A stretch of 37,896 nt of DNA from Alphaproteobacteria bacterium (GTDB lineage: Bacteria; Pseudomonadota; Alphaproteobacteria; Rhodobacterales; Rhodobacteraceae), in assembly GCA_030425145.1 (NCBI GenBank), contig JAUHVK010000037.1, positions 1 through 37,896 of the forward strand, in the 5' to 3' direction. Below are positions 12,895 through 37,896 of this stretch, one piece after another. Position 1 is the first letter of the stretch; the number at the start of each line of letters is the position of its first letter. The notes below the pieces were generated by a model. That model was not told the origin of the DNA. It did no database searches and was given only the letters and a program-made list of their open reading frames with translations. Position numbers and translations under genes: made by a program.

Positions 12895-13158
12895 ATGACC
12901 AAGCGTACGGCCTCATCTCCCTTGCGCACGAACCTGCGTGATCGCGAACCTGCATTTGCACCGATGTCCCGCTTTGATGCCGCCGCATTCCATGATCGCT
13001 TCGTCACGTTGCGCATTCTCTCTCGGATCAGAGGGGAAAGCTGGCAATCGCTCTCAAGCAAGTTGCGGGATGCAGGGGTTGCCCCTTTCAAACCCGGCGA
13101 TACGGATTACGTCAATATTTATCTGAAGTACGAAGTGCAGCCTGCCCTTCCGAAGTGA
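12895..13158 (+). CDS. hypothetical protein (87 aa)
   Basis: This 87-residue basic protein was not assigned to a family. Residues 30-75 read like a small helix-turn-helix or wHTH end domain (FVTLRILSRIRGESWQSLSS, LRDAGVAPFKPG, then YLKYEVQPALP). A good intrinsic terminator follows 25 bases after the stop, which supports a real transcription unit. The ribosome-binding site is weak. It could be a stand-alone small DNA-binding protein or a C-terminal fragment of a larger protein such as a recombination accessory factor. It sits 100 bases from an IS3 element, in a region that seems to have lost DNA. Confidence 0.45.
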   Translation: MTKRTASSPLRTNLRDREPAFAPMSRFDAAAFHDRFVTLRILSRIRGESWQSLSSKLRDAGVAPFKPGDTDYVNIYLKYEVQPALPK

Positions 13159-13305: not shown

Positions 13306-14205
13306 TTAAGCTACTCTTTGCACCTGCTGATCAGGTTGGTTGATAACATGTCTCTGCCAATAGACCAGCGCCGGTGGCTTGCCGCCGAGGGCTAAGTGAG
13401 GACGCTGGTGGTTGTAGAAGGTCATCCATTTCCGGATGGCCGCTTTCGTCTCTGATCCGGTCTCCCAGGCATGCAGGTAGACGCATTCCTATTTCAGGGT
13501 TCGCCACAGCCGCTCGATGAAGATGTTGTCGAGGAAACGGCCTTTCCCATCCATCGAGATGCGCACGCCGGATCGGCGGAGCCGGTCGGTCCAGGCGAAG
13601 GACGTGAACTGGCTGCCCTGATCCGTGTTCATGATCTCGGGCGTGCCGAACTTGTGGATGGCCTCGTTCAGCGCTTCGACGCAGAAGTCGGCCTCCAGGG
13701 TGTTCGAGATCCGCCAGGACAAAACCTTGCGCGTGTGCCAGTCCATGATCGCCACGAGGTATAGGAACCCGCGCCGCATGGGCAGGTAGGTGATGTCCGA
13801 GCACCAGACCTGGTTCGGACGATTCACGCGCAGCCCTTTCAGAAGGTAAGGATAGGTCTTGTGTCCTTTCGTCGGCCTGCTCGTGTTGGGCTTCTGGTAA
13901 ATCGGCATCAGCCCCATGAGGCGCATTAGCCGGCGTATCCGCTTCTCGTTCACGAGATGCCCGTCATCGCGCAGGTGCCAGGTCATCTGGCGGACACCGA
14001 AGAACGGCGTCTCCAGGAACTGCTCGTCGATCTGCCGCATCAGGCCGAGGTTCTGTTCGGTCTCTCCCTTCGGCTCGTAGTAATAGGACGAGCGCGCGAT
14101 CGACAGCAGCTTGCACTGCTGACCGATGGACAGCTGGGGATGGTCAGGCTCGATCATGCCGCGCCTCACTTCCCGCCCCAGGGCTTCAGCTTTCGTTCCA
14201 AAAAA
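13306..14205 (-). pseudogene. IS3-family transposase OrfB, interrupted by an amber codon
   Basis: After the frameshift site the frame encodes the integrase-type catalytic domain: WCSDITYL (first Asp), NTDQGSQFTS (second Asp) and DNIFIERLWRTLK (Glu). At 13489-13491 an in-frame TAG replaces the Tyr normally found in LKYECVYLHAW. The same frame then continues with the expected tail (ECVYLHAWETGSETKAAIRK, NHQRPHLALGGKPPALVYW) to a TAA at 13306. The catalytic triad precedes the stop but about 60 residues would be lost, so the copy is probably inactive unless the amber codon is read through. A sequencing error of one base cannot be excluded. Confidence 0.85.
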
Positions 14206-14459
14206 GAGTTGGCCACCGCCAGCTCCCCGATCTTGGCGTGGAGCTCCTTCACCTGCTCCTCGTCGATCTCGGGTCTCTTGCGGCCTCCGCGCTCGAACAC
14301 GCCGGACGCGCCTTCGAGCAGGGCTCGCTTCCATTGATGGATCATCGTCGGATGCACTCCGAACCGGCTCGCCAGCTCGGACACCGTCTCTTCACCCTTC
14401 AGGGCTTCCAGCGCGGCCTTCGCCTTGAACTCGGGCGCGTGCTGCTTGCGTTTCGACAT
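14166..14459 (-). CDS. IS3-family transposase OrfA (helix-turn-helix subunit)
   Basis: The 97-residue protein is a typical OrfA. It has an N-terminal helix-turn-helix (EFKAKAALEALKGEETVSEL, then FGVHPTMIHQWKRALLEGA) that recognises the IS ends, and a C-terminal leucine-zipper-like helix (EEQVKELHAKIGELAVANSF). It alone acts as a regulator. By a -1 ribosomal frameshift it is fused to OrfB to make the active transposase. The frameshift site T-TTT-TTG lies at 14199-14205 in the codons for Ser-Phe-Leu. OrfA itself looks intact. Confidence 0.88.
   Translation of the reverse strand: MSKRKQHAPEFKAKAALEALKGEETVSELASRFGVHPTMIHQWKRALLEGASGVFERGGRKRPEIDEEQVKELHAKIGELAVANSFLERKLKPWGGK
14199..14205 (-). 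promoter_or_regulatory. programmed -1 frameshift slippery heptamer
   Basis: On the minus strand the bases read T TTT TTG in the orfA frame, a canonical X-XXY-YYZ site. Slipping back one base here joins OrfA to the DDE frame (continuing FFGTKAEALG). Confidence 0.65.
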
Positions 14460-25686: not shown

Positions 25687-26799
25687 TCAATGCAGAGGCG
25701 CTCGCCCCTCCAGCATTTCCGCCCGGGTCAGCATGCGCACCACGTCCCGGAGGCACAGGCGCCTCCCTGTAGCCGCCGGTGCGAGCACGATGGCATCCAG
25801 AACCGCATCCCTCGCCTCATCGGAAAGACCGAGCTTGGCAGCACGTCTTGTTGCGAAGCTCAGAAGCTGAGCCTCCGTCACGTCGGGAATCTCGATCACC
25901 GCGCACCGGCTCCGCACAGGTTCGGAAACCAGATCGACGTTGTTCGCCGTGAGGATCCACGACAGATGAGACAAGTCGAACGTCACACGGAAGTAAGGGC
26001 AATCCCAAGCCCGCGCCGTCGCAGGCTCCAGCAGCGAGAGAAGAGCGTCGGCGAAGGAATAGGTCGGTCCTCGCGTGGACGTCCTTGACGTGGCCTTACA
26101 GATCTCATCGACGATGATCATCGGGTTTGCAACCGTCTTGGCGAGCATGAGGTCAATCGGGCGTCCCGCCTGCGCCGTTCCCCAGCCACGCTCGAGGCCG
26201 ACGAGCGCCATGCCCGCGCCGCCTTTGCTCGCGTCGATCTCGGCCATTGGCAAATGAAGGGCCTCAGCCACGGCGCACGCCCAGACGCTCTTTCCGATGC
26301 CCGGTGGACTATTCAGGATCACGGGGCGGATCGTGATCGGATTACCCCGCTTGGCTGCCAGCCGAAACTCGTGCCAGGCATACTCCGTCGCTGGGGCCAT
26401 CCACGGCATCTCTTCGTGCAAGGCCGCTGCAACCTCGTCCACCCAGTCTTCGCCTCGCGGCATCACAGCAGACATGCCGTGGAGGCCGGGCTTCAACCGG
26501 TCGTATTCCTCGCGCTTCAGATGGGACACACCTGCGGCCCTCACTCGGGTCTTGGCCAGCTTTGAGGCACGCTCAGCGATGCGCCGCTTGTCGAACATGG
26601 TCAGGTCGATACCGCTGGAGAGCACCTCCGCAAACTCGTCGAATTCGCCCACCTCGAACTCGGAAGACCGCTCGTCCTCCCCAATCAGGTCGCGGGCCAG
26701 TTTATTCTTCCGAATCGTCTTCAGCACCTCTTTCAAGTGATCGGCGATGATGATGGGATCTGTCTCGTAATCCGGGAGGTCGATGATCTTGATGCGCAT
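25687..26799 (-). CDS. Lon-like AAA+ ATPase without protease domain
   Basis: The 370-residue protein contains one AAA+ module. Walker A is SPPGIGKS (164-171), Walker B is PMIIVDEICKA (from 226), sensor 1 is WILTANNVD (281-289), and candidate arginine fingers Arg296/Arg298 lie in EPVRSRC. The arrangement FADALLSLLEP before YFRVTFDLSHLSWILTANN is that of Lon proteases (ALLEVLDPEQ then YDLSKVMFITTAN). The Ser-Lys protease domain of Lon is absent, however, as the protein ends 70 residues after the sensor region. The N-terminal 150 residues are helical and acidic and unlike the Lon N-domain. It would be an ATP-driven remodeller with unknown client. It follows tnsC on the same strand but behind two terminators, so it is probably expressed separately. 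Confidence 0.82.
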   Translation of the reverse strand: MRIKIIDLPDYETDPIIIADHLKEVLKTIRKNKLARDLIGEDERSSEFEVGEFDEFAEVLSSGIDLTMFDKRRIAERASKLAKTRVRAAGVSHLKREEYDRLKPGLHGMSAVMPRGEDWVDEVAAALHEEMPWMAPATEYAWHEFRLAAKRGNPITIRPVILNSPPGIGKSVWACAVAEALHLPMAEIDASKGGAGMALVGLERGWGTAQAGRPIDLMLAKTVANPMIIVDEICKATSRTSTRGPTYSFADALLSLLEPATARAWDCPYFRVTFDLSHLSWILTANNVDLVSEPVRSRCAVIEIPDVTEAQLLSFATRRAAKLGLSDEARDAVLDAIVLAPAATGRRLCLRDVVRMLTRAEMLEGRAPLH

Positions 26800-27012: not shown

Positions 27013-27300
27013 TGTTTTCAATCACTTAGAGGCCAACGGAAATTTTACACCTCGGTAATGGAACGTTTTTGGCCCGAAATGGAAACTTATCGGTTGGCTG
27101 ATCAACGACAGGGGCCTAGACCGAGAAAAACCATATCTGTGCGCACCGGGTCCTATCGTCGATTCGAATCGAAATAAAATAACTCAATATCAACACCTTA
27201 CAGACCACCCGAAGAGGCGGAAAGGCATAAGCTTACGCACGACACCATAAGGTTACGCAGTCATTTTTCAGGCCGAACGCCCTCAGGGTAACTCTATAAG
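27013..27300. other. non-coding segment with degenerate repeats between two minus-strand terminators
   Basis: This 290-base segment between the tnsC terminator and the terminator at 26970 carries no credible ORF. It contains a set of related short motifs: GGAAATTTTACACC (27039), GGAAACTTATCGG (27081), ACACCTTACAGAC (27193), CATAAGCTTACGCAC (27226) and CATAAGGTTACGCAG (27246). Arrayed degenerate repeats near one side of tnsABC resemble TnsB-binding sites of a Tn7-like left end. They could equally be regulatory sites or belong to a small RNA gene. A palindrome TCGATTCGAATCGA also lies near 27158. Confidence 0.4.
27226..27260. repeat. two 15-base direct repeats, 20-base period
   Basis: CATAAGCTTACGCAC at 27226 and CATAAGGTTACGCAG at 27246 differ at two positions and are spaced by about two helical turns, as expected for side-by-side protein-binding sites. 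They are candidate TnsB-binding sites downstream of tnsC. Confidence 0.6.
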
Positions 27301-27332
27301 AAAAAACAAAAAAACCGCGCTGAAGCGCGGTT
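27301..27332 (-). terminator. intrinsic terminator of the tnsABC operon
   Basis: AACCGCGC-TGAA-GCGCGGTT forms an 8-base stem with a tetraloop (27313-27332). On the minus strand it is followed by TTTTTGTTTTTT. It lies 28 bases beyond the tnsC stop. Confidence 0.85.
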
Positions 27333-27360
27333 CTGTGTCGAGGTCTGGTTGTTCAGATCG

Positions 27361-28323
27361 TTAGGAGATGAAGGCCTGGAACGGCTTGTCGGGCCGGAAC
27401 ATGGTCTCATACCCGTCATGGGTGAACGGGGTCGCCAGAGCGTTCACGTTGGCCTTCTCTGCCCAGAAGTCCACATAGTGATCCCGGGTCAAAATGGGCG
27501 AGCGGGAAACGCGTGCCTTTGCGATCGAGGAAATCGTCATTTTGATGAGCGTACCCCACCTCATGGCCGAGGCGACCGCGAGGCGGCGGTAGAAATCCTC
27601 CGTCATGAGATCCTCATCGACCCCCAGGCCGTTCTCGAGGGCGTAGCTCCCCACGATCTCGTGGATCACGTTCAGGTCGTCGGGCAGGTCGATCCCGTCA
27701 AAGTGGACGTGAGTCACCTTGTTCTGGGTCTGGTCAAGCGCGCGAACATGATCGGCGAGTTCCGGAACGCCGGACATGATCAACATCAAGGGCCACCCCC
27801 TTGATTTGATGAGCGATTTGAAGTTGTCGAGGATCATTTCCCGGTCGTTGTCCGACTTGCCGGCGAAGATGTGCTGGGTCTCATCGAAATGAATCCCGAT
27901 GATACCCTGAGCTTCGGCTTGATGGGCGACCCGCGCCCAGATGTCGGTCTGGGTCAGACGCGCGTTATCAGACAGGTGATATCCCATCGCCTTCAGAGTC
28001 CGCCGCCCGAGGTCCTTCCACCCGCCCGCCCTGCTCAGGTCGCACTGGGCGATGCGTGCCGGGGTACCGTTCGGCAGCGGAACCTTCTCCTCATGGAGCA
28101 GCTTTAGAACCTCATTCGTTTCCCGGGTCTTACCGGACTCGCTCAGCCCGGTGACAAGAAGGACTTCCCCTTCGAACCACTGACCGCTGTTCAGATTTCC
28201 GATATGGCGGCTGAAGACCTCGCTAAACGTGCTCCGGAGCTTTTCACCGCGGCTGAGCGGAAAGTATCTGCCGGTGTTCAGGGCGGCGGTTTCGGCGATC
28301 TGAGGGTTGAAGAGACGCGTCAT
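27361..28323 (-). CDS. tnsC: TnsC/TniB-type AAA+ ATPase transposition regulator
   Basis: The 320-residue AAA+ protein has Walker A GLSESGKT (59-66), Walker B IIGIHFDETQHIF (from 141) and a sensor-like strand LMLIMSGVPEL. In Tn7-like systems TnsC forms an ATP-dependent filament on target DNA that links the target selector to the TnsAB transposase. The size is close to TniB and the shorter TnsC proteins, without the long N-terminal extension of E. coli Tn7 TnsC. Its start overlaps the tnsB stop by 4 bases, indicating coupled translation. It is the last gene of the operon and is followed by a clear terminator. The usual TniQ/TnsD partner gene is not found next to it. Confidence 0.87.
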   Translation of the reverse strand: MTRLFNPQIAETAALNTGRYFPLSRGEKLRSTFSEVFSRHIGNLNSGQWFEGEVLLVTGLSESGKTRETNEVLKLLHEEKVPLPNGTPARIAQCDLSRAGGWKDLGRRTLKAMGYHLSDNARLTQTDIWARVAHQAEAQGIIGIHFDETQHIFAGKSDNDREMILDNFKSLIKSRGWPLMLIMSGVPELADHVRALDQTQNKVTHVHFDGIDLPDDLNVIHEIVGSYALENGLGVDEDLMTEDFYRRLAVASAMRWGTLIKMTISSIAKARVSRSPILTRDHYVDFWAEKANVNALATPFTHDGYETMFRPDKPFQAFIS

Positions 28324-30482
28324 AACTTGCTGTCCTTTATGGGCGTGAAAGATTTACCGGTGGGCCGGGAGGTCCGGTCCTTGGGCGGCGGTGTCGAGGT
28401 ACTGGCGGCAGAACGCTCACCGACCTTGAACGCCGGGGTATTTCCGCTCCGGTCTGTGAGGCGACCTGGCCGGGCGGTCGGTCCGGTGACCCCCTCAGGC
28501 CGGAACGAAACCTTCGCCATTCGACTGGCTCGGCGCCAGTACTGATCGGTGTTCTGATAGTTGGACGGGTCTCGCGTATTAGAGAAATACCCTGACTCCC
28601 TGGCCCGGCGGGCTCGGGTTTCTTTCAGGTGGGCATCATGAAGCTCCTGGGCTTTCGGGTTACGCCGAGCGGTTTCTTCCATCAGACTTATCGCTTCATC
28701 GAGGGTCAGGTCCGAGAAGGCCGTCATCGAGAGGTTTACCTCGATGACATCGTCATGACCTCGCGCCGTTACATAGGCTTTCCTCAGATCGTCTGGGTCT
28801 AGGTGGATGGTCACCTTGCGTGAGGCCCCGCCAGAAAATTCCTGAAGCGCGGTCGAGTTGAACGGAATTTTAAAGGCCTTCACGCCCTCCGGTGTGATGC
28901 TCGCCTTTGTGGTTACGCCAAGGTGCAGGCAGCGCTCCCGTTGGGAGGGAGCCTCGATCGCCCGATAGGTTGTCGTAACCTCCAGCATCTTTTCCCAAGG
29001 AGTCGCCCCGAACATCCCAACCCCGCGGTGTGATTTATGGGAATACTCATCGACGAAGTACCTGGTCAGCGTCCCATAAATTTCGTCATGGGTTGTCGCC
29101 ACTGACCCCTTGGGGTCATAGTCCTTCAATTCACCCGGACGACTTCCCGTATAGCCGGGGAGGAAATTCAATACATCCCATTGAGTTGTCCCGAAAAGCG
29201 TTTCGATGTGAGGCTTATCTCCCGAATGATAAGCCCGCGCAGGGATAACAGTCATCCCTGACCCGAGTTGTGCGGCATAGACTCGACCATTCCGGGTCGC
29301 CGTACCGTTATCTGCCTCGAACTTCATCAATCGGACGGGCGGTGCCGGATCCTTCTTACATTCGTAGCGGACCTTTTCACGGGTCTTGTCGCGTGTCGCC
29401 ATGCGCAAAAGGGCTTCTGTGTGATCCGCATCAGCGGATTTCGCGATGATCCAAGCCAGAGGCAGACGCGTCGCAACGTCGATCATCACATGGAGCCAAA
29501 GACGACAGATTTCATCAGATGCAAGCTCTTCCGGCGCTGCCTTCGGGTCAAGGCGCTTAGCCTGAACGGTGCCGCCCGTGTCAGTAAAGATAGACAGATA
29601 AACCTGATCGGTTTCGGTCTTCTCACCGAAATATAACGCACCGATATCGGTTGAACCGGCCCCTATGCGATTCCGGGCGTATTGCCATCCGTTCCGTCCA
29701 CCCTCTTTGACAAATGTTGAGAGCGCCTTGATCCGGGCCCGGATGGTTGTGATCGATGGAAACTTGAAACCGGCAGCGACTTCGTGCGACGGGACGTCAA
29801 ACTTCCCTTCAACCAGCCTAAGCAACGGTGCCAGCTTGGGTTTTCTTCGTTTTAGCCAGGACGTGATTGCGTGGTCGATGTATACCTCCTGGAGGGTACT
29901 CATGCGCCGGGACCGGTTCCCTTTCATATGCTCGCGGTCCATCAGTACGATCGGGTTGTCGTCGAACTGATGAAATATCGACTGGTATTTCTTAAGGGTG
30001 CGCCCCTGGGGCATGTCAAAACTCGCTGTGACACGACCTCCCCGCGCCGCGTCAAGAAAGGCCCCGCCACCGTGGATCTCGGAAGCCTTTGTCTTCAGAG
30101 TTTTCCGATATTCACCATCTTTGTTAATGCTTCTTTCGGTGATCTTTTTTCCTTCAGCCTCAAGCGCGTCTATCGCGAGCACGATAGATAGTCGGTGTCG
30201 AATGTGTTCCTGCTGTTCTTCCGAGAGCTGTTCGATCACCTCGAGGCCACCCGTATAGCGAAGAAGCGCTTCTCGCTTCTCGAGATCCTTCGGCTCTGTT
30301 ACCTCACAGTTGCGATCCTTGATCGCCTGATCAACACGCTGAAACGAAAACGTCAGGCATTCGCCGTCGTCCACCCCCTCCACGGCATAGCCGTTTTCCT
30401 CGATCCCCGTAACCAGCCAGTCGCGCCCGTCCAGAAGCAGGCGCGATCCGGTCAAGACACGGTAGAGGGGGACATAACTCAT
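28320..30482 (-). CDS. tnsB: TnsB/TniA-type DDE transposase
   Basis: The 720-residue protein is the transposase that binds the element ends and makes the 3' cuts and joins. The N-terminal 270 residues hold helix-turn-helix-type DNA-binding domains (for example SITTIRARIKALSTF near 243). The RNase-H-like domain has likely catalytic Asp292 (TETDQVYLSIF), the structural strand WLHVMIDVATRLPLAWI, Asp391 in FEADNGTA, and Glu427 in DKPHIETLFG. This gives a D-x35-E spacing typical of integrase-like transposases. A beta-barrel and a C-terminal tail that would contact TnsC follow (rich in Arg and Pro after residue 640). It overlaps tnsA and tnsC by 4 bases on each side. Catalytic residues appear intact. 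Confidence 0.9.
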   Translation of the reverse strand: MSYVPLYRVLTGSRLLLDGRDWLVTGIEENGYAVEGVDDGECLTFSFQRVDQAIKDRNCEVTEPKDLEKREALLRYTGGLEVIEQLSEEQQEHIRHRLSIVLAIDALEAEGKKITERSINKDGEYRKTLKTKASEIHGGGAFLDAARGGRVTASFDMPQGRTLKKYQSIFHQFDDNPIVLMDREHMKGNRSRRMSTLQEVYIDHAITSWLKRRKPKLAPLLRLVEGKFDVPSHEVAAGFKFPSITTIRARIKALSTFVKEGGRNGWQYARNRIGAGSTDIGALYFGEKTETDQVYLSIFTDTGGTVQAKRLDPKAAPEELASDEICRLWLHVMIDVATRLPLAWIIAKSADADHTEALLRMATRDKTREKVRYECKKDPAPPVRLMKFEADNGTATRNGRVYAAQLGSGMTVIPARAYHSGDKPHIETLFGTTQWDVLNFLPGYTGSRPGELKDYDPKGSVATTHDEIYGTLTRYFVDEYSHKSHRGVGMFGATPWEKMLEVTTTYRAIEAPSQRERCLHLGVTTKASITPEGVKAFKIPFNSTALQEFSGGASRKVTIHLDPDDLRKAYVTARGHDDVIEVNLSMTAFSDLTLDEAISLMEETARRNPKAQELHDAHLKETRARRARESGYFSNTRDPSNYQNTDQYWRRASRMAKVSFRPEGVTGPTARPGRLTDRSGNTPAFKVGERSAASTSTPPPKDRTSRPTGKSFTPIKDSKL

Positions 30483-31216
30483 TCAGGCAGCCGAACGCGC
30501 GAGTGGATGCTGATAACCGAATACCAGTCAGCCGCGAGGTGGCCGCGACCGATCATGCGCAGGGCGGCGTCGAACGCGCGTGGCGACGGAAGGCCCGAGT
30601 TCCGGATCAGATCTTTCAGCAACCAGTAGTTCGTCGTGCGTGCAGCCTCCGTGACCAGCTCGTCAGCCTCTGGGTCCGCCCGCTGACAGGCGTCATAGGC
30701 CCGGAACAGGTTATCGCGGTACTGTCGGGTATATTGGTCACCGTTGACCACGATCGCGTCATCCGCGAAGTCGCTAGGGATCGCGTTGAAGATGACCTCG
30801 ATCTCGGCCTTGGTTTTCGGTTTCGTCAGGCTGTGGCCGTTACGGACGAAAACAGCCCGCCGGAACCCGTCCTCAAAGGTGATGCGCATATCGAAGTGAT
30901 GCTCGCGCGGCTTCTTCCTCCCGGGCCAGGGATAAAGGATCGGCGGAAGCTGGACCTCGATCCCGTAAACGGTGGGATCGAGCAGGATGTCGAGGGCAGC
31001 CGCCCATTCAGTAAGGGCCTCGAAGAGATAGACCTTAGGGAGCCCGTTCGTGGCGCGCGTCACAAAGGTGGTGGCGACCCTACGCGCCACCGTACTGCGC
31101 GTCAGGGGGTTCCGGTGACCAGAATAGGGCAGAAACCCGAAAATCTCGGGGATCTTGAGCGCTGGCTGTTTGCCGGTGGGGCTGCGGCGGACTTCTTCCT
31201 CGAGGAAGATGGACAT
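30479..31216 (-). CDS. tnsA: TnsA-type endonuclease subunit, altered catalytic Lys motif
   Basis: The 245-residue protein resembles TnsA, the restriction-enzyme-like subunit that cuts the 5' ends during cut-and-paste Tn7 transposition. Residues 60-125 carry the nuclease core: VYLFEALTEWAAALDIL with candidate Glu66/Glu70, then HHFDMRITFEDG with Asp109. The following strand reads RAVFVRNG where active TnsA proteins have an E/Q-x-K motif, so Phe123 and Arg125 replace the Glu/Gln and Lys. The C-terminal half is helical and would bind TnsC. The ATG has CAGGAGAGAGTC upstream. It is the first gene of the operon. If the changes abolish cutting, transposition would give cointegrates; this needs an alignment. 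Confidence 0.82.
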   Translation of the reverse strand: MSIFLEEEVRRSPTGKQPALKIPEIFGFLPYSGHRNPLTRSTVARRVATTFVTRATNGLPKVYLFEALTEWAAALDILLDPTVYGIEVQLPPILYPWPGRKKPREHHFDMRITFEDGFRRAVFVRNGHSLTKPKTKAEIEVIFNAIPSDFADDAIVVNGDQYTRQYRDNLFRAYDACQRADPEADELVTEAARTTNYWLLKDLIRNSGLPSPRAFDAALRMIGRGHLAADWYSVISIHSRVRLPE

Positions 31217-31228
31217 GACTCTCTCCTG

Positions 31229-31252
31229 TCCGGAAAGCTCCCCCTTTCCGGA
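31229..31252. promoter_or_regulatory. perfect inverted repeat in the tnsA leader
   Basis: TCCGGAAAG and CTTTCCGGA form a 9-base dyad with a 6-base spacer, ending 12 bases upstream of the tnsA start codon and next to its ribosome-binding site. It could be an operator or an RNA hairpin controlling transposase synthesis. Confidence 0.55.
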
Positions 31253-31275
31253 TTCTTCTGCGTTTCGTTTTGAGA

Positions 31276-31383
31276 GCCTGATGATCGCGCTTGTCTGGAC
31301 CGTTGGTGGTCTCTATTCTGACAAGAGAACTGGGGCGATCAGGCCCCCGACTTCCCGGGCGCGCCATTGGCGCGCCCATTTTT
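31276..31383 (+). ncRNA. candidate structured small RNA divergent from tnsABC
   Basis: The plus strand folds into a long branched-free stem: GCCTGAT (31276-31282) with ATCAGGC (31338-31344), an inner CTTGTC (31290-31295) with GACAAG (31320-31325), and an apical GGACC/GGTCT (31297-31312). It is followed 12 bases later by a strong intrinsic terminator ending in TTTTT. No ORF with a start signal lies in it. A fold plus its own terminator, without a gene, is the usual look of a small RNA of about 110 bases. The promoter was not identified. Alternatively the dyads belong to the transposon's right-end region or the tnsA leader read on the other strand. Confidence 0.4.
31357..31383 (+). terminator. 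intrinsic terminator on the plus strand upstream of tnsA
   Basis: GGGCGCGCC-ATT-GGCGCGCCC is a perfect 9-base stem with a 3-base loop, followed by ATTTTT. The T-run is on the plus-strand side only, so it ends a transcript that starts between tnsA and here. Confidence 0.75.
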
Positions 31384-31774
31384 CTGTCGTGGTAGTCTCG
31401 TTCTATCGGCCTCCTATTTGGCGCTGAAGTTCAAGTGCACTCGGCACCGAAAGACTCATGCCTACGGACTCGGCGGACTTAAATAGCCTTCACTGACGGA
31501 GTCAACACACGGAAAAATAAGAGAAAATTTCTCATTTCAGTTTTTCGCATCCTCTAAGAAACCGCACTTCTTGGGTCCTTCGCTGAGCATCCTCAGACCT
31601 GCTAAAACTATTCCATAAACGGTCCCCGTGGAACGGCTGCAAAGACGAATCTTGGGGAGGGGCTATATTGTTAACTCATCAGCCGTTCTGCACTGGTTTG
31701 GCGTGACGTAGGAACCTATGTTTTGAAACGGATATCTCTGTAGAAAGGACCACGGATGCAGGACCGCTACGGCG
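31384..31774. other. 391-base AT-richer intergenic stretch
   Basis: No gene recognised. It has a small dyad GAGAAAATTTCTC near 31523 and a CTGAG/CTCAG hairpin near 31584. A Tn7-like right end would be expected around here, but no repeats matching those at 27226 were found by eye. Confidence 0.4.
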
Positions 31775-31777
31775 GTG

Positions 31778-31960
31778 ATGAGCGTGACGCTAAGCAACGA
31801 CCTGGTGGATGAGGCCCGTCGCCTCGGGCTCAATATGTCCCGCATCGTCGAAGCTGCCCTCATCCGGGAGGTGGCGGCCGAACGTCTCCGGCACGAAGCG
31901 GACTGGAACGAGGACCGCGAAGGTGGCGACTGGACTAGATCCAGCATTCCGGAGACGTAA
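31778..31960 (+). CDS. CcdA-like antitoxin (ribbon-helix-helix), orphan
   Basis: This 60-residue protein begins SVTLSNDLVDEARRLGLNMS followed by RIVEAALIREVAAERL. This matches the N-terminal DNA-binding half of CcdA-family antitoxins (beta strand, then the RLGLN-S turn and helix). The usual C-terminal toxin-binding segment (after an AxxWxxEN motif) is only hinted at (HEADWNEDREGGDW) and then diverges. No CcdB toxin gene follows; the next gene is the small charged protein at 32091. It may be a decayed toxin-antitoxin module or a stand-alone regulator. A GTG at 31775 could add one residue. Confidence 0.6.
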   Translation: MSVTLSNDLVDEARRLGLNMSRIVEAALIREVAAERLRHEADWNEDREGGDWTRSSIPET

Positions 31961-32090
31961 TCGGCAACGCGCCCGCGCACGCCGCGGACGCTCACGTTTA
32001 CCGACGACCAGACCCGGTTCGACTATTCACGCTACGTGACGCAACCGGGGTTTTCCATTACTCGTCAATCAGGCGCCGACGGAGACCACC

Positions 32091-32297
32091 ATGTCAGACC
32101 TGTTCAAACACCGAGCCGCAGCGAAGGCCCGCGCCCGCGAAAGGGACGAGGAGCGCCTGCGTCGGGGCGAAATCACCCCATCCCAGCTCCAGCAGGAAAA
32201 CCTCGTGTTCCGGGGGTTCAAGAAGCGCGTGATCGGTCTACCGGCGAAATACATGCGGAAAATCAAGCAGCGCTCGGAGGACAAGGGTGACACATAG
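32091..32297 (+). CDS. small charged protein, paralogue of the one at 24909 (68 aa)
   Basis: The 68-residue protein starts at ATG 32091 with GGAGACCACC directly upstream, a good ribosome-binding site. It is dominated by Arg, Lys and Glu and predicted helical. Its centre RERDEERLRRGEITPSQLQQ plus ENLVFRGFKK aligns without gaps to the 83-residue protein encoded about 7 kb away. Ends differ: here the start is MSDLFKHRAAAKARA and the tail is AKYMRKIKQRSEDKGDT. Similar short proteins may occur elsewhere in Rhodobacteraceae, but no function is known to me. Conservation of two diverged copies beside the same transposition genes argues that it is a real protein. Confidence 0.72.
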   Translation: MSDLFKHRAAAKARARERDEERLRRGEITPSQLQQENLVFRGFKKRVIGLPAKYMRKIKQRSEDKGDT

Positions 32298-32489
32298 CGT
32301 TCGCCACCTGGCAAAAGATTCCCACTACAAACTTTGGGTCCATCACCGACATTAATGTAGTATTGGCACGCGAGGATGGCCGTTCAGATGAGCCGAGCCA
32401 CGCAGCGCAACACTGGACGGACCCCACCGGGGCGCTCACCTCGTGATTTAGGTGCAGGACGTTGATCTGGCAGGGAAAATAAGGTGGCG

Positions 32490-33374
32490 TTAGAAAAGCC
32501 TAGACCATTCGAAAAGATCGTATTCCATGCGGTATACATTTTCGCATTGGAGGAGTACTGCTTCTTCCGATACTTGCTTTTCATCACAAATAGCGACGTA
32601 GAAACCGCTCGCTTCGCCAGCGATTCCCGCGAATGCATATCTGAACCAACCGACGGACGCCCGAAACCGGCCAACTTGTTCGGCAACATACTCATGAAGG
32701 GTCTGAGCCGCCAAAGGGTATTCCCCGCCGACGAATGAATGAACTTGAAGTGTAGTTGAGCCAATGAGTTTGCGGCTACCTGCCGCGACAACGGGAATTG
32801 ATATTGCATAGTTGAACCGGATAGAAACATCCGCACGATTACCGTCTTTGAACTCAACGTTCTCGGTCACATCAATTGGTGTCGGGAGTTGAAATGGCTC
32901 TCCGATAATCATGGACGTGCCGGGAAGCAGTTTGTCTATACTAAAGTGGACGTTGAACGACCCGTTGCCTGGATCAACCGATCTGGTCACTCGAGCCGGG
33001 ATCCGGGAATCATTGATAAAGAGATCACCGATGTCACTGCTCGTTCCCGGGCTGCTACCTTCGACCTCAAAAAAATTCATGCTGATCGACACGGCTTCTT
33101 CACTGGTCTCACCAACATTGGTTACGCCAAGCGGCAATTCCGCTAGCAGAATTTCTTTTTCAAAGTGGTCAGGTTTGACAGAGAAAAATACATCGGCAGC
33201 CTCCCCCACAAGCCGCTGATCTGAAATGGTCAGAACTAGATTGCTTTGATCATAGGGAGGTCTATTTTTCCAAAGGACTACGGGAAGATACATCGAGACC
33301 ACTGCAACCAGCAATGCTATTACGCCAACAATAAAGCCCCAGAAGCCTATCTGCTTTTCCGAAAGCGGCAACAA
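32490..33374 (-). CDS. membrane-anchored protein of unknown function (294 aa)
   Basis: No family was recognised. The start is probably TTG 33374, preceded by AAGGA at 5 bases; a second TTG follows immediately. Residues 9-32 (IGFWGFIVGVIALLVAVVSM) form one membrane segment, leaving a large domain of about 260 residues. That domain is rich in beta strands and acidic/polar residues (LVLTISDQRLVGEAADVFFS, PGTSMIIGEPFQLPTPIDVT), likely outside the cytoplasm. The C-terminus contains a single Cys pair (CDEKQVSEEAVLLQCEN). The composition differs from neighbours, with fewer Ala and Arg, which suggests acquisition by transfer. It stands alone and faces the small gene at 32091. Confidence 0.65.
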   Translation of the reverse strand: MLPLSEKQIGFWGFIVGVIALLVAVVSMYLPVVLWKNRPPYDQSNLVLTISDQRLVGEAADVFFSVKPDHFEKEILLAELPLGVTNVGETSEEAVSISMNFFEVEGSSPGTSSDIGDLFINDSRIPARVTRSVDPGNGSFNVHFSIDKLLPGTSMIIGEPFQLPTPIDVTENVEFKDGNRADVSIRFNYAISIPVVAAGSRKLIGSTTLQVHSFVGGEYPLAAQTLHEYVAEQVGRFRASVGWFRYAFAGIAGEASGFYVAICDEKQVSEEAVLLQCENVYRMEYDLFEWSRLF

Positions 33375-33899
33375 CCCAATCCTTCAATTGTCCCTAGAAC
33401 CTTTTGGCGATCTTGACAGAGCTAAGGAACTTGAGCAACGCAGATGGCCTTCGTAGAATTTGGCTAAGATATTTCCGGGTGTGGGACCGGGTTTCCACGT
33501 AAGCGGCAGAGGGTTCCAAAAGGTGCCGGTATGTATATGCGACTTGGTCAGTCATGTTCTACTCCCGTTCCTGTCGAAAATAGCGCTCACGACTGCCTCA
33601 GAAAACCGTGCCCCAACCCAGTATGACTTCGTCGTTGGAGGCGCGATAGCTCAGGAATAGTTGCCAAGCGGGTTCCGCCACGTTCAAACGCGTTGCGCAC
33701 TGGCTTTCCCTCAACAGAACGTTCTGACGCCGAATGTCATGGCCATCCCATGTGCTCGACATCTTTGATTTTCGCCGCCAATCGGTTGTTTTGGGTTAAT
33801 GGCGTGGCAGCCCACTGATAACGTCCCGATCTGCTTGTCGGGAACAGTAAAAAACCTAAGCTGACCATCAGGAGCAACCAATCCCAATGGAGACCTTTA
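33375..33899. other. 525-base stretch without a gene
   Basis: Divergent promoters for the unknown membrane protein and the amidase should lie here. Short ORFs lack ribosome-binding sites. GTCCCGATCTGCTTGTCGGGAAC near 33826 contains a CCCGA/TCGGG dyad that may be regulatory. Confidence 0.45.
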
Positions 33900-35216
33900 A
33901 TGCCTGATGGAAGCAGTACGCCGTCCCGGCGTAGTATCGTCGTTTCGGAATTTACCAATTCTGTTCTTGATCCCAACGCGCCGATGCTCGGCCCGATCGA
34001 GAACGGCGGAACGATCATCGCCAATACGGCACCGGGATGCTGGGGCCCGATGATCACGCCGCGCCTTCGCGGTGGACATGAAGTGACAACACCCGTGTTC
34101 GTACAAGGAGCTGAGGTGGGCGATGCTGTGGCAATCCGCATTCGCGACATCACTGTGACCTCTATCGCGACGGCGTCCGGCCACGACAGCTCGCCTGAGG
34201 GATTCTGCCTTGGCGATCCCTATGTCGCCGCGCGCTGCCCGGTCTGTGATACCGTCTGGCCAGAAACCCATGTCGAAGGCATCGGACAAGATGCGGTGAA
34301 ATGCGATGCCTGCGGCAATGCCGTCAAACCCTTCGAGATCGTGCATGGCTACACCGTCACCTTTGACGAGACCCGCAGTGTCGGCTTGACCCTCCCCCAC
34401 GCCGCTGCCGAGACGATCGCCAAGGACGCCAACCATTACGCCGCCCTGCCCGATGGCAGCCGCCAGCATTCGATCCTGACCTATGCTCCATCCGATATGC
34501 CTGGCACGCTGGTGAGGATGCGCCCTTTCATGGGGCAATTGGGCACCTGCCCGTCCATGGCCATGCCCGACAGCCACAATGCTGGCGATTTCGGGGCTTT
34601 CCTTGTCGGCGCACCGCACGACTACGCCATCACAGAAGACCAACTGGTTGAGCATAAGACTGATGGCCACATGGATATTGACGCAGTCCGTGCCGGTGCG
34701 ATTATTGTCTGCCCGGTCAAGGTGCCGGGTGCCGGTGTATACATGGGCGACATGCATGCAGGTCAGGGCGATGGCGAAATCGCTGGCCACACGATGGATG
34801 TATCGGGCAGCGTCACGTTGCAAGTCGAGGTGGTGAAGACGTATCCCATCGATGGCCCAGTCTTGTTCCCACTCGAAGAAGACCTGCCGCCACTTGCCAA
34901 GCCATTCACCGAGGCGGAAAAGGCCAAGGGCCAGAAACTTGCTACCAAATGGGGCGTGTCCGAGATCGACGCATTGGCACCAATTTCCGTGATCGGAACA
35001 GCCGCCAACCTGAACGCCGCCATCGACAACGGCCTTGCTCGGGCAGCGGCACTGCTGGACATGACAATTGCCGAAGTTCGCAACCGCGCCACAGTCAACG
35101 GCGCCATTGAGATCGGCCGCGCACCGGGCGTGATACAGGTCACGTTTCTGGCCCCACTGGCCAAGCTCGACGCAGTTGGCCTAGGCGATTACGCCCGCGA
35201 ACAATATGGTCTCTGA
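33900..35216 (+). CDS. acetamidase/formamidase family protein with zinc-ribbon-like insert
   Basis: The 438-residue protein belongs to the FmdA/AmdA family, which hydrolyses formamide, acetamide or related short amides to acid and ammonia. Typical stretches are GPIENGGTIIANTAPGCWGP, RGGHEVTTPVFVQGAEVGDA, the central FGAFLVGAPHDY, VPGAGVYMGDMHAGQGDGEI (metal/active-site region with Asp-His) and VSGSVTLQVEVVKT. Unusually, residues 113-138 carry CPVC...CDAC, a CxxC-x18-CxxC pair resembling a zinc ribbon. The ATG has GGAG 12 bases upstream. It is monocistronic and ends in a hairpin. The amide substrate is not deducible from sequence. Confidence 0.87.
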   Translation: MPDGSSTPSRRSIVVSEFTNSVLDPNAPMLGPIENGGTIIANTAPGCWGPMITPRLRGGHEVTTPVFVQGAEVGDAVAIRIRDITVTSIATASGHDSSPEGFCLGDPYVAARCPVCDTVWPETHVEGIGQDAVKCDACGNAVKPFEIVHGYTVTFDETRSVGLTLPHAAAETIAKDANHYAALPDGSRQHSILTYAPSDMPGTLVRMRPFMGQLGTCPSMAMPDSHNAGDFGAFLVGAPHDYAITEDQLVEHKTDGHMDIDAVRAGAIIVCPVKVPGAGVYMGDMHAGQGDGEIAGHTMDVSGSVTLQVEVVKTYPIDGPVLFPLEEDLPPLAKPFTEAEKAKGQKLATKWGVSEIDALAPISVIGTAANLNAAIDNGLARAAALLDMTIAEVRNRATVNGAIEIGRAPGVIQVTFLAPLAKLDAVGLGDYAREQYGL

Positions 35217-35230
35217 GGAGTGAACGTTCT

Positions 35231-35258
35231 GCCGCGGGAACTTGTCACTTCCCGCGGC
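35231..35258 (+). terminator. hairpin after the amidase gene, T-run replaced by IS remnant
   Basis: GCCGCGGGAA and TTCCCGCGGC pair perfectly over 10 bases with an 8-base loop, 14 bases after the stop. No T-run follows; the truncated IS630-like transposase frame begins directly at the hairpin's edge, so the tail of the terminator was probably lost at the junction. Confidence 0.65.
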
Positions 35259-36132
35259 TCATCGGGTTCAGGTGGGGGCAATAGGGCGGCAGCTGGATCA
35301 GTCGTATGCGGCAGTCTGGTCGTTTGAGAAATTCGCGAACGTCTGCCCCCTTATGGTAAGCCGCATTATCCCAGATGACATAGATGATCCGCGAGAGAGG
35401 ATTGCGCGCCTCAATCTTGGCGAGAAGCTGCGCTGCACTCACCCCGTCTACGGTGGTCGGCTCGACAAAGGGCGCGTCAAAATTCTCAAGATTGAGCGCA
35501 CCATGGATGTACACGCGCCCACGCCCTGCGGTCGTTGTTACGGCGGGGTTTGATCCTGCCTTTACCCAACCGTAGCTGGGTTTTGTCTGGTATTCAGGAT
35601 GCACTGCGTCGGCGAAATAGACGGCTTCATCTGCACCCAATTCGTTCAGCAGCCGCTCGTACAAAGCAATGAATTCAGCTTGCTTCTCTTCAGATGCAAC
35701 GCGTAGCAGCCCTTTCGGCTTTCGATACTCATAGCCAAGTCGGGCCAAAAGCTTGATGCAGCCCGAGTGGGATTAGTCCACGCCATACTGTACCGCGATA
35801 TGCGCCCTGATCTCGACAGTCGATCGACAGAAGCGTTCGTCCAGCCTGGCGCAAAGCTCTGTCTCTTGAGCCGGCGTCATGCGGGACTGACCGCCCTTCC
35901 AGCTGTCGGTAGAAAGCGCATCCCAGCCACCCTCTCGGTACGTCTTGTACCAGCCTCGAATGGTATCATCGTCTAGGTAGAGAAACTCCGCGATGGCCTG
36001 ACAGGACTTCCCATCATCCAGAAGCAAAATCGCATTCGCACGACGCGCAATACCGTGATCTTCGCGCTGGCTACGCACGCAAACCTCAAGTTCACGTCGC
36101 TCTGCAGAAGAAAGATAACCGGGACGGATCAT
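35259..36132 (-). pseudogene. IS630-family transposase remnant
   Basis: A single degraded transposase gene is spread over two open frames in the same reading frame. The N-terminal part (ATG 36132, 119 residues) has the helix-turn-helix (SCQAIAEFLYLDDDTIRGWY). An in-frame TAA at 35773-35775 sits where related proteins read VDYSHSGC; after it the frame continues SHSGCIKLLARLGYEYRKPK. The catalytic domain keeps the first Asp (VYFADAVHP) and the second (YVIWDNAAYH). The third motif LNPIERLW is cut to LNPM at the junction with the amidase hairpin, losing the catalytic Glu. It is therefore dead twice over. No complete inverted repeats were identified. Confidence 0.87.
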
Positions 36133-36140
36133 GCACTTAA

Positions 36141-36563
36141 CTCAGTCGATGCCCGCTTGGACGTCAACCCTTCAAATCTCGGGTATTCAGTGACTCCAAG
36201 TATAAAAGACATATTTTCTTAAGCATTGCGCCCGGTGTTCCAGCGTTTCTGTCTCTTAACCCAGACACGACCATATCGGTTTTAGTACAAGTACCGTCAC
36301 GTTTACCGTTCGGATTAGGAAAGCCTAAAATTGTATCGGTCGGTAAGTTAAATGAAGAGGCCACTGAAAAACTGCGCTCCGCCGTCGAGCAAAACGCAAA
36401 CCTCCGAGTGCGCATTATTGAAGTTGAGCCTGCCCACCTTAGCGCAACAGGCACTACCTCAGTATACGTATCGGTTTGGGGAAATCCTGATGAAAAAGTT
36501 TGCGAAAAAAACATGCCAAAAATATTCACGCGTAGCAAAATTAATGATCCGTTGTCTTTTTAA
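36141..36563 (+). pseudogene. 5'-truncated ORF of unknown function next to the IS630 remnant
   Basis: The plus-strand frame from 36141 to the TAA at 36561-36563 is open for 140 codons but has no ATG, GTG or TTG near its beginning. From about codon 17 it reads like real protein: YKRHIFLSIAPGVPAFLSLN, PDTTISVLVQVPSRLPFGLG, KLNEEATEKLRSAVEQNANL, RVRIIEVEPAHLSATGTTSV. The composition is AT-rich and unlike the neighbouring genes. Most likely the IS630-type insertion removed the promoter and the 5' end of a foreign gene. The family is not recognised. A minus-strand ORF over the same bases was rejected as a shadow. Confidence 0.5.
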
Positions 36564-36622
36564 AGAAACAACAAAGCCTACTACAAAAATTCGCTTAGAT
36601 TAAGTAGACGTTCCTCATCAGA

Positions 36623-36703
36623 TTAAGGAATAAGGGTGTAGATCAAGGCCAAGAAAAGCGTCATGTAGAGCAGCAGCATTCCTAAAATCAACACCTTACT
36701 CAT
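36623..36703 (-). CDS. 26-residue hydrophobic peptide (putative small membrane protein)
   Basis: ATG 36703 opens a 26-codon frame, MSKVLILGMLLLYMTLFLAL then IYTLIP, that is one continuous transmembrane helix with a charged Lys near the N-terminus. GGAG lies about 9-10 bases upstream. Its size and shape match small inner-membrane proteins that modulate larger complexes, or type-I toxin peptides. It lies in an AT-rich stretch of unknown genes. Coding status is inferred from the helix and ribosome-binding site only. Confidence 0.4.
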   Translation of the reverse strand: MSKVLILGMLLLYMTLFLALIYTLIP

Positions 36704-36907
36704 CCATCTCAGCTCCAAGTATAGATTATTCAATACCCATTTCCCCCCAAACACATCTTTGGAGGCTAGATTTCGAGATCTAGCAAAAAGGCACGCTTAT
36801 ACAAGATAAACCTTATTCCCTAGCACACACCATGCCGCCTATAAGTCGTTAGCGCATCGGAATTTATCCGTACGTAACTAAACATCTGAAACGTGGCCAC
36901 GAGAATT

Positions 36908-37537
36908 CTAGCGCGAATCTCCTACAATCTTAACAATTCTCATGTTCGTGACAGAATTTGCCATCATGCTGGCGATACGTGAGGCTTCCTGCACCCGAAG
37001 GTTTGCAACCGACACAAGCTGTTCAGCTTTCTCAGATGCCGAGTTGCTGAAATCAAAAACCTCATTTGACTGATGTTTCGCTTGATTTGCTAAAACATCC
37101 GCCATAGTATTCGAGTCCATATCAAACATGCAACATCCACTTTTGTTTATGGATAGGTCTGACGTGCGAGGCCATTTATTTTTTCCCATGGGTGGAGGGC
37201 TAGGGTGAAAATCCAGTTGGAGCGCTCCTGCTTCTGGTAATACGCTCGGGCGACCAGGCTTCTCAACGATATCAAATTCGCCAACCTGAGTAGAGTCATA
37301 AAATCTCAACCGAGGAGCAATCTTTGACGGTATTAGTGGATCCAATCGATGAGGTGCTTCAACATAATTTGAGCTTGAGGACAACTGATCTGCTAGAGCG
37401 CCTAGAATGGAAATTTCCGCTTGAGCATGTAACTTAGAACCCCACATGAATAGCAACATGGTCACGAATAAAGCAGCGTGTTTGACTTTAAAGTCAGGAG
37501 TACTGCAAGTCAAAAATATTACCTTGATTCTGTCCAT
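36908..37537 (-). CDS. secreted or anchored protein of unknown function (209 aa)
   Basis: The start is probably ATG 37537; the frame is open to a TTG at 37561. No family was recognised. Residues of about 20-40 (HAALFVTMLLFMWGSKLHAQ) form a hydrophobic signal segment with an AQA-like cleavage site, preceded by an unusually long, basic N-region with two Cys. The mature part is polar, with Pro-rich HPSPPPMGKNKWPR, a Cys-Cys pair in KSGCCMFDMDSN and a helical C-terminus rich in Ser, Asn and Val (ANLRVQEASRIASMMANSVT). Codon and base use are AT-rich compared with the rest of the window, suggesting recent transfer. Confidence 0.55.
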   Translation of the reverse strand: MDRIKVIFLTCSTPDFKVKHAALFVTMLLFMWGSKLHAQAEISILGALADQLSSSSNYVEAPHRLDPLIPSKIAPRLRFYDSTQVGEFDIVEKPGRPSVLPEAGALQLDFHPSPPPMGKNKWPRTSDLSINKSGCCMFDMDSNTMADVLANQAKHQSNEVFDFSNSASEKAEQLVSVANLRVQEASRIASMMANSVTNMRIVKIVGDSR

Positions 37538-37896
37538 CTTTCGGATCCCGCCAATTGACAATCAACTTGCAGTAACGATAGACTTTTTTTCGCGACCTCG
37601 ATAGAAAAAATTTTAAGAAAATTTAACTTCTTGCATCACGGTTTATCCCCAAGTGCGAAAAAGTTTCTAATCAAGCTCATTAGAGCGGGTGAAGCTGAAT
37701 TCGCGCAACACACCTGACCTACCTAGAGTTCTGTGAGAGCGATTCTTGGCTACGATGTATAAAAGAGCACATCCCACATTTCCCAAGTAAGGCGCTGATT
37801 TCGCTGTCCTGACCATTATATTTCCTATATAAAACATGGTGTTGAAGGCTGCGAGGGGCGCGTTTTATGGATCACCCAGAGGGTGCGGGCTTGCAA
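37538..37896. other. AT-rich non-coding end of the window
   Basis: Upstream region of the unknown secreted protein. It has long A/T runs (for example GAAAAAATTTTAAGAAAATT near 37604) that may contain its promoter. Near the right edge two plus-strand frames open with ATG (37837 and 37867), but too few codons are visible to judge. Confidence 0.4.

Follow-up and report, generated by a model that had tools for sequence, protein, structure and literature searches.

A tnsABC operon with no tniQ on its contig is very probably one end of a Tn7-like transposon inserted at nrdJ

Transposons of the Tn5053/Tn402 group encode TniA, TniB, TniQ and TniR, lack TnsA and target res sites. For Tn7 itself, PMC11406308 and PMC10293859 describe a TniQ/TnsD protein that binds the end of a conserved gene and recruits TnsC, and PMC10293859 states that, in loci with two TniQ proteins, one longer than 400 amino acids (aa) suggests direct target selection. 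Here we report an analysis of the tnsABC operon on the 37,896-nucleotide contig JAUHVK010000037.1 of the Rhodobacteraceae assembly GCA_030425145.1. The window, meaning this whole stretch of DNA, is the complete contig C96 of a draft genome of 4.91 Mb in 111 contigs (G000; G and W numbers denote genomes and records, C numbers contigs and L numbers loci). A first-pass annotation had seen the operon, recognised no TniQ gene in the rest of the window, and proposed that the target is chosen by TnsC alone, by an unrelated factor encoded nearby such as a Lon-like ATPase, or by a TniQ encoded elsewhere. The last proposal proved right: a full-length tniQ is present on contig C90, which also bears the other end of the element. 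The operon very probably marks one end of an ordinary Tn7-like transposon that homes to nrdJ by means of TniQ/TnsD and continues on C90.

The operon is real and, as first described, consists of three genes on the minus strand, whose successive open reading frames (ORFs) share 4-bp overlaps; Pfam matches and alignments bear out the assignments of TnsB and TnsC, that of TnsA being the least secure. A tnsA-like gene (30479..31216, 245 aa) is followed by tnsB (28320..30482, 720 aa), encoding a DDE transposase with D335, D391 and E427, and by tnsC/tniB (27361..28323, 320 aa), encoding an AAA+ ATPase. TnsB matches Mu-transpos_C in Pfam (1e-4) and rve under its bit cut-off (2.9e-5), and among structures in the Protein Data Bank (PDB) it matches PseTnsAB (6e-11) and Tn6677 TnsB (3e-10). 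The intact D-x35-E reported by the first-pass annotation was confirmed, D391 and E427 being invariant in all 15 aligned sequences, as is D335. TnsC matches AAA_22 (4.6e-8) and TniB (7.7e-5, just 0.3 bits above the cut-off), its G64, K65, D147 and E148 are invariant among the aligned sequences, and its family profile matches PseTnsC, VchTnsC and ShTnsC. The window's TnsA has no Pfam match of its own; of 18 aligned homologues, 10 match PF08722 at E<=0.1, the best at 1.3e-7, and the top solved structure for the family profile is Tn7 TnsA (1f1z), a weak match with E 0.024 for the whole sequence and 0.27 for the domain. An intrinsic terminator beyond tnsC, noted before, was read by eye at 27304..27332 on the minus strand as a GC hairpin and a T-run, and a hairpin and T-run of similar form lie beyond tnsC in L010, W01, G302 and G395.

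Both ends of the element were located. DNA homology to the nearest homologue, that of Gemmobacter lutimaris, breaks off sharply about 240 bp beyond tnsC, and the terminal base of the tnsC-proximal end was placed at 27120, where the homology to L010 stops and a 27-base match to C90 ends. Predicted TnsB-binding repeats of about 20 bp occupy the minus strand at 27241..27260 (inner copy, matrix score 20.7), 27221..27240 (second copy, 23.4) and 27127..27146 (outermost copy, 22.5). Of 31 listed sites the first 29 went into the matrix, one being used twice; they include these three window sites but not the sites of C90 or of contig C10 of Gemmobacter (G394). On control DNA of 163,915 bases the matrix scored at most 16.5. 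In the own genome six stretches were scanned with it (the window, L006, L007, L103, L104 and L105), among which the sole repeat pair outside the window was found at C90:15021-15062, where two copies in inverted orientation score 28.0 and 22.0 and the element ends at C90:15069. Over their outermost 27 bases the two ends agree at 25 positions (C90:15043-15069 on the C90 side). A whole-genome scan with the terminal 16-mer, allowing up to two mismatches, returned C90 (no mismatch), C96 (one mismatch) and two places with two mismatches, while the reversed control gave two matches; one-mismatch motif matches on C14 and C74 were rejected as second ends since neither has a pair of matrix sites. Immediately outside the element, CCTAG at 27115..27119 is repeated at G000:C90:15070-15074, a perfect 5-bp target-site duplication (TSD). 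At the same offset of 27, the duplications read CCTAG/CTAGG here, CCGGC/GCCGG in Gemmobacter and TGTCG/CGACA in G050; the two ends of each of the latter two elements are on separate contigs.

The C90 end adjoins nrdJ, which encodes a ribonucleotide reductase assigned to class II because a Cereibacter homologue 81% identical to it is annotated as adenosylcobalamin-dependent. The element begins 10 bp plus the 5-bp duplication beyond the nrdJ stop codon (C90:15085-15087), and in Gemmobacter, by reading, 11 bp and the duplication separate the end from that genome's own nrdJ stop, so that a fixed site beyond this conserved gene is seen in two genomes. Empty sites are present in the congeners G396 and G398, where the DNA after nrdJ is 84-86% identical, over 2.2-2.4 kb, to the part of the window outside 27120; the match runs through the gene for a Lon-like AAA ATPase (25687..26799, minus strand), and only about 25 bp round the insertion point align poorly. 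Since the flank is continuous after nrdJ in these genomes, the two flanks belong together and the Lon-like gene lies in host DNA outside the element; it was rejected as a targeting factor for this reason. Relatives of this ATPase (38-39%) occur 3' of tnsC in Paracoccus ferrooxidans pFER4 (L057 16072-17160) and between tRNA-Arg and tniQ in G302 (join of L042 and L090, 1560-2585). The nrdJ survey covered 19 of the 21 other genomes that carry the gene (all but G414 and G421), and the 3' end of the gene was located automatically in 17 of 22 sequences, missing G394, G405, G411, G419 and W03; that of G394 was then read by hand. Among 16 nrdJ sequences besides that of G000, the match to the window flank is long in the two congeners, 70 bp in G402 and absent in 13. 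On Cereibacter plasmid e (L058 4616-11624), broken relatives of tnsB occur within a few kb of nrdJ, and the end repeat was not found there. Our literature search returned no paper pairing Tn7-like elements with ribonucleotide reductase or TniQ with nrdJ; the attachment site may be new to the literature, or may have been reported already.

The TniQ gene on C90 (C90:3033-4880, 615 aa, PF06527 2.2e-16) is full-length, and about 10 kb of DNA with cargo separates it from the far end. The TniQ profile search suggested in the first-pass annotation found three genes above the cut-off in the genome, on C52, C90 and C43, and none at Pfam level on C96. The statement that no TniQ is recognisable in the rest of the window needs qualifying, as tblastn uncovered two relics. 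One is the C-terminal portion of a TniQ of the same clade as that of the element (12925..13155, plus strand; 52% to the TniQ of G395, E 2e-13), which lies outside the element shortly before an IS3-type transposase gene (13489-14334) and was dismissed as a selector because it is a C-terminal piece only, with no end repeat found nearby. The other, an internal piece of a TniQ from another clade, lies close to the left edge of the contig (424..582, minus strand; 58% to G308, E 3e-13). A TniQ match immediately outside the window had been named beforehand as the finding that would speak against a selector-less operon, and C90 supplies it in substance, the stretch between C96 and C90 being an unassembled gap.

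Absence of the selector from the window is an assembly effect: C96 and C90 both break at repeats, and tniQ is on C90. The right edge of C96 (37773..37896) is a multicopy repeat matched 11 more times elsewhere in the genome; ten of these matches are 99-100% identical and several sit at contig ends, and C90 starts in a repeat common to it and two other contigs. The element runs off both contigs at these repeats, hence its length is given as a minimum, at least 10,777 bp on C96 and 15,069 bp on C90 plus the gap. We infer that the two contigs hold parts of a single element, whose middle is unassembled.

A TnsB match with E<=1e-20 was found in 27 of 394 sampled genomes of the family, 14 of which, the present genome included, form a close group. 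Adding Gemmobacter lutimaris (75%), three plasmid records and the genome of an uncultured member of the Rhodobacteraceae brought the number of other elements for comparison to 18; relatives were not found in viral and phage collections. In the gene neighbourhoods of these homologues, which the first-pass annotation had proposed to inspect, TniQ lies on the tnsB contig in 9 of 18, and it scores above the Pfam cut-off in 14 of the 18 genomes or records, against a base rate of 32 of 149 sampled family genomes (own included). The gene is upstream and divergent in five (G262, G067, G302, G395 and W02) and immediately upstream and co-directional in three (G127, G171 and G309), and in W01 it was probably displaced by an inversion between two inverted 856-bp repeats. 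Spacing between tniQ and tnsA is about 10-14 kb in G395, G067 and G302 and about 35 kb in G262. Beyond tniQ in W01, G262, G050 and W02, the end repeat of about 20 bp seen past tnsC in the window recurs in inverted orientation as two copies 22 bp apart. The tniQ-side end adjoins tRNA-Arg(CCT) in G262 and G050 and guaD in W02; in G302, also at tRNA-Arg(CCT), the end repeats are weaker (15.2 and 17.9, about the control maximum), in W01 a partial similar tRNA was recognised by eye but not called by ARAGORN, and at tRNA-Arg(TCT) in G293 a repeat is visible by eye only. These sites raise the possibility, which we put forward tentatively and at somewhat less than even chances, that a Tn7-like clade in Rhodobacterales relatives has radiated over several sites with different TniQ proteins and clade-wide TnsA substitutions, the sites being nrdJ, tRNA-Arg(CCT), probably tRNA-Arg(TCT) and guanine deaminase.

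Several observations weigh against a single nrdJ-homing element with its selector on C90. Its halves are on separate contigs with an unassembled gap between them. TniQ was not shown on the tnsB contig in 9 of the 18 relatives, in six of which TniQ and tnsB were found solely on different contigs, and the protein may there belong to another element; none was found for G282, where tnsB is at a contig edge, in G051 there are only TniQ fragments, and W03, a short record from Cereibacter, shows neither TniQ nor end repeat. A clean 5-bp duplication was not found in G302 or W01, nor an end repeat beside tnsC in W02, and the matrix found no repeat at the tRNA site of G293. The first 157 or so residues of the Gemmobacter TniQ are off its contig, and this copy may be interrupted. 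As an observation in its own right, in L041 (G051:C5) a TniQ fragment directly precedes a truncated tnsB in the place of tnsA, a rearranged remnant.

Of the alternatives, the one that survives best grants that tnsABC and the C90 tniQ form one element and holds that the TniQ on C52 is the working selector, or that both serve different sites. The C52 protein (624 aa) shares a clade with that of C90, could be the active selector and may lie in the gap or in another element; two TniQ proteins in one element are known from W02 (Paracoccus ferrooxidans). In the TniQ tree, which comprises 29 proteins from 29 of the 31 fetched loci (L079 and L080, below the cut-off, were excluded, and matches with no fetched locus were not treed), the C52 and C90 proteins are placed among those from genomes carrying the same TnsB group. 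The nearest relatives of the C52 protein are the TniQ of G037 (63%) and G321, its gene comes after a type III restriction-modification set with a Schlafen/AlbA gene (L006, G000:C52:1-11456), and the matrix scan found no end repeat on C52. By comparison, the TniQ part beside Gemmobacter nrdJ, residues 158-612 on the nrdJ-side contig, is 82% identical to the C90 protein. The Pfam TniQ search of the Gemmobacter genome failed because the N-terminus is absent; given an in-frame stop at base 97 of the contig, its opening 120 or so bases are not tniQ, which is why that copy may be interrupted. On balance we regard selection by C52 as unlikely. The third TniQ, on C43, belongs to a well-supported separate group and was discarded as a partner, being in another clade and having a tnsC homologue just upstream (L008 5206-6258, E 2.5e-6).

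Less probable still, and in our view quite improbable, is that tnsABC in the window is dead, a remnant that merely lies near an end. Relics of other TniQ genes and several insertion sequences (IS) in and around the window would fit such a history, as would a TnsA that lacks Q130 and K132 of Tn7. The protein keeps E63 and D114 and has F for Q130 and R for K132 (Gln130, Lys132 and the other catalytic positions are numbered as in Tn7 TnsA). In the alignment of 18 rows (A1; W02, L011 and several distant homologues left out), the close group has Arg at Lys132 in 11 of 12 rows and Phe or Tyr at Gln130; the six distant homologues all keep the Lys and lack the Gln. These clade-wide substitutions may alter strand cleavage. 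Against decay stand three intact frames, 92, 75 and 93% identical to those of Gemmobacter lutimaris, the invariant residues of TnsB and TnsC given above, and the intact ends with their perfect duplication.

That the element truly has no TniQ, having lost it or never had it, and that TnsC alone or the Lon-like ATPase picks the target, agrees with the empty profile search of C96 and of G282 but is hardly credible given a full-length tniQ on the contig with the matching end and duplication, which leaves targeting by TnsC alone unneeded, and a Lon-like gene that follows nrdJ in congeners with empty sites.

Starting at nrdJ, the element with its TniQ on C90 would comprise one end, cargo, tniQ, further cargo and an outward-reading tnsABC before the second end. 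Its interior on C96 (31217..37896) holds a formamidase-family gene (33900..35216), a split IS630 (35245..36132) and small ORFs before running off the contig. Cargo on C90 resembles defence genes, namely a DrmD-like helicase, an AriA/GajA-like ATPase and an nSTAND protein; defence-like cargo is reported for Tn7-like elements generally in PMC8649781. An exact-repeat scan of window positions 27117-37896 and C90 1-15069 found no CRISPR array, no Cas effector was found among the proteins scanned (a subset of the ORFs, in the assembled parts), and the only match in PADLOC related to CRISPR-associated transposons (CAST) is TnsB itself to TnsB_0_V-K (1.3e-5).

By analogy with Tn7, TnsB would bind the repeats of both ends and TnsA and TnsB would cut. 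The C90 TniQ, a large TnsD-like protein, would supply the specificity for the nrdJ 3' end; it would bring in TnsC along with the ends bound by TnsAB, and insertion would follow in a single orientation, 10 bp and the 5-bp duplication beyond the stop codon. An apparently selector-less Tn7-like operon can thus be an effect of assembly, tniQ and tnsABC often being many kb apart in the genomes where both could be placed on one contig, and the nrdJ site with its paired ends, duplications and empty sites offers a clean system for TniQ homing specificity.

Compared with the described systems, the element shares with Tn5053/Tn402 a TnsC that also matches Pfam TniB and the presence of TniQ, but it differs from them in its TnsA-like gene and in sitting at a gene 3' end rather than at a res site, and no resolvase was found among the window and C90 proteins scanned, a subset of the ORFs. 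It resembles the tRNA-homing Tn7-like elements (the TnsD pathway of CAST I-B2 and I-D, as portrayed in PMC10293859 and PMC11406308) in its large TniQ and in occupying a 'safe' site beyond a conserved gene, and other members of the clade lie by tRNA-Arg; unlike CAST I-B2 and I-D, neither array nor Cas effector was found in the assembled parts and proteins scanned, and TnsA and TnsB are unfused. From Tn7 it differs in using nrdJ instead of glmS, in the distance of tniQ from tnsABC and in the TnsA substitutions, and TnsE did not turn up among the Pfam-scanned proteins, no search having been aimed at it. Like Tn7, with TnsABC and TnsD at glmS, it combines a TnsA-like protein, TnsB, TnsC and a large TniQ-domain protein with subterminal repeats of about 20 bp at both ends, a 5-bp TSD and a site by the 3' end of a conserved gene.

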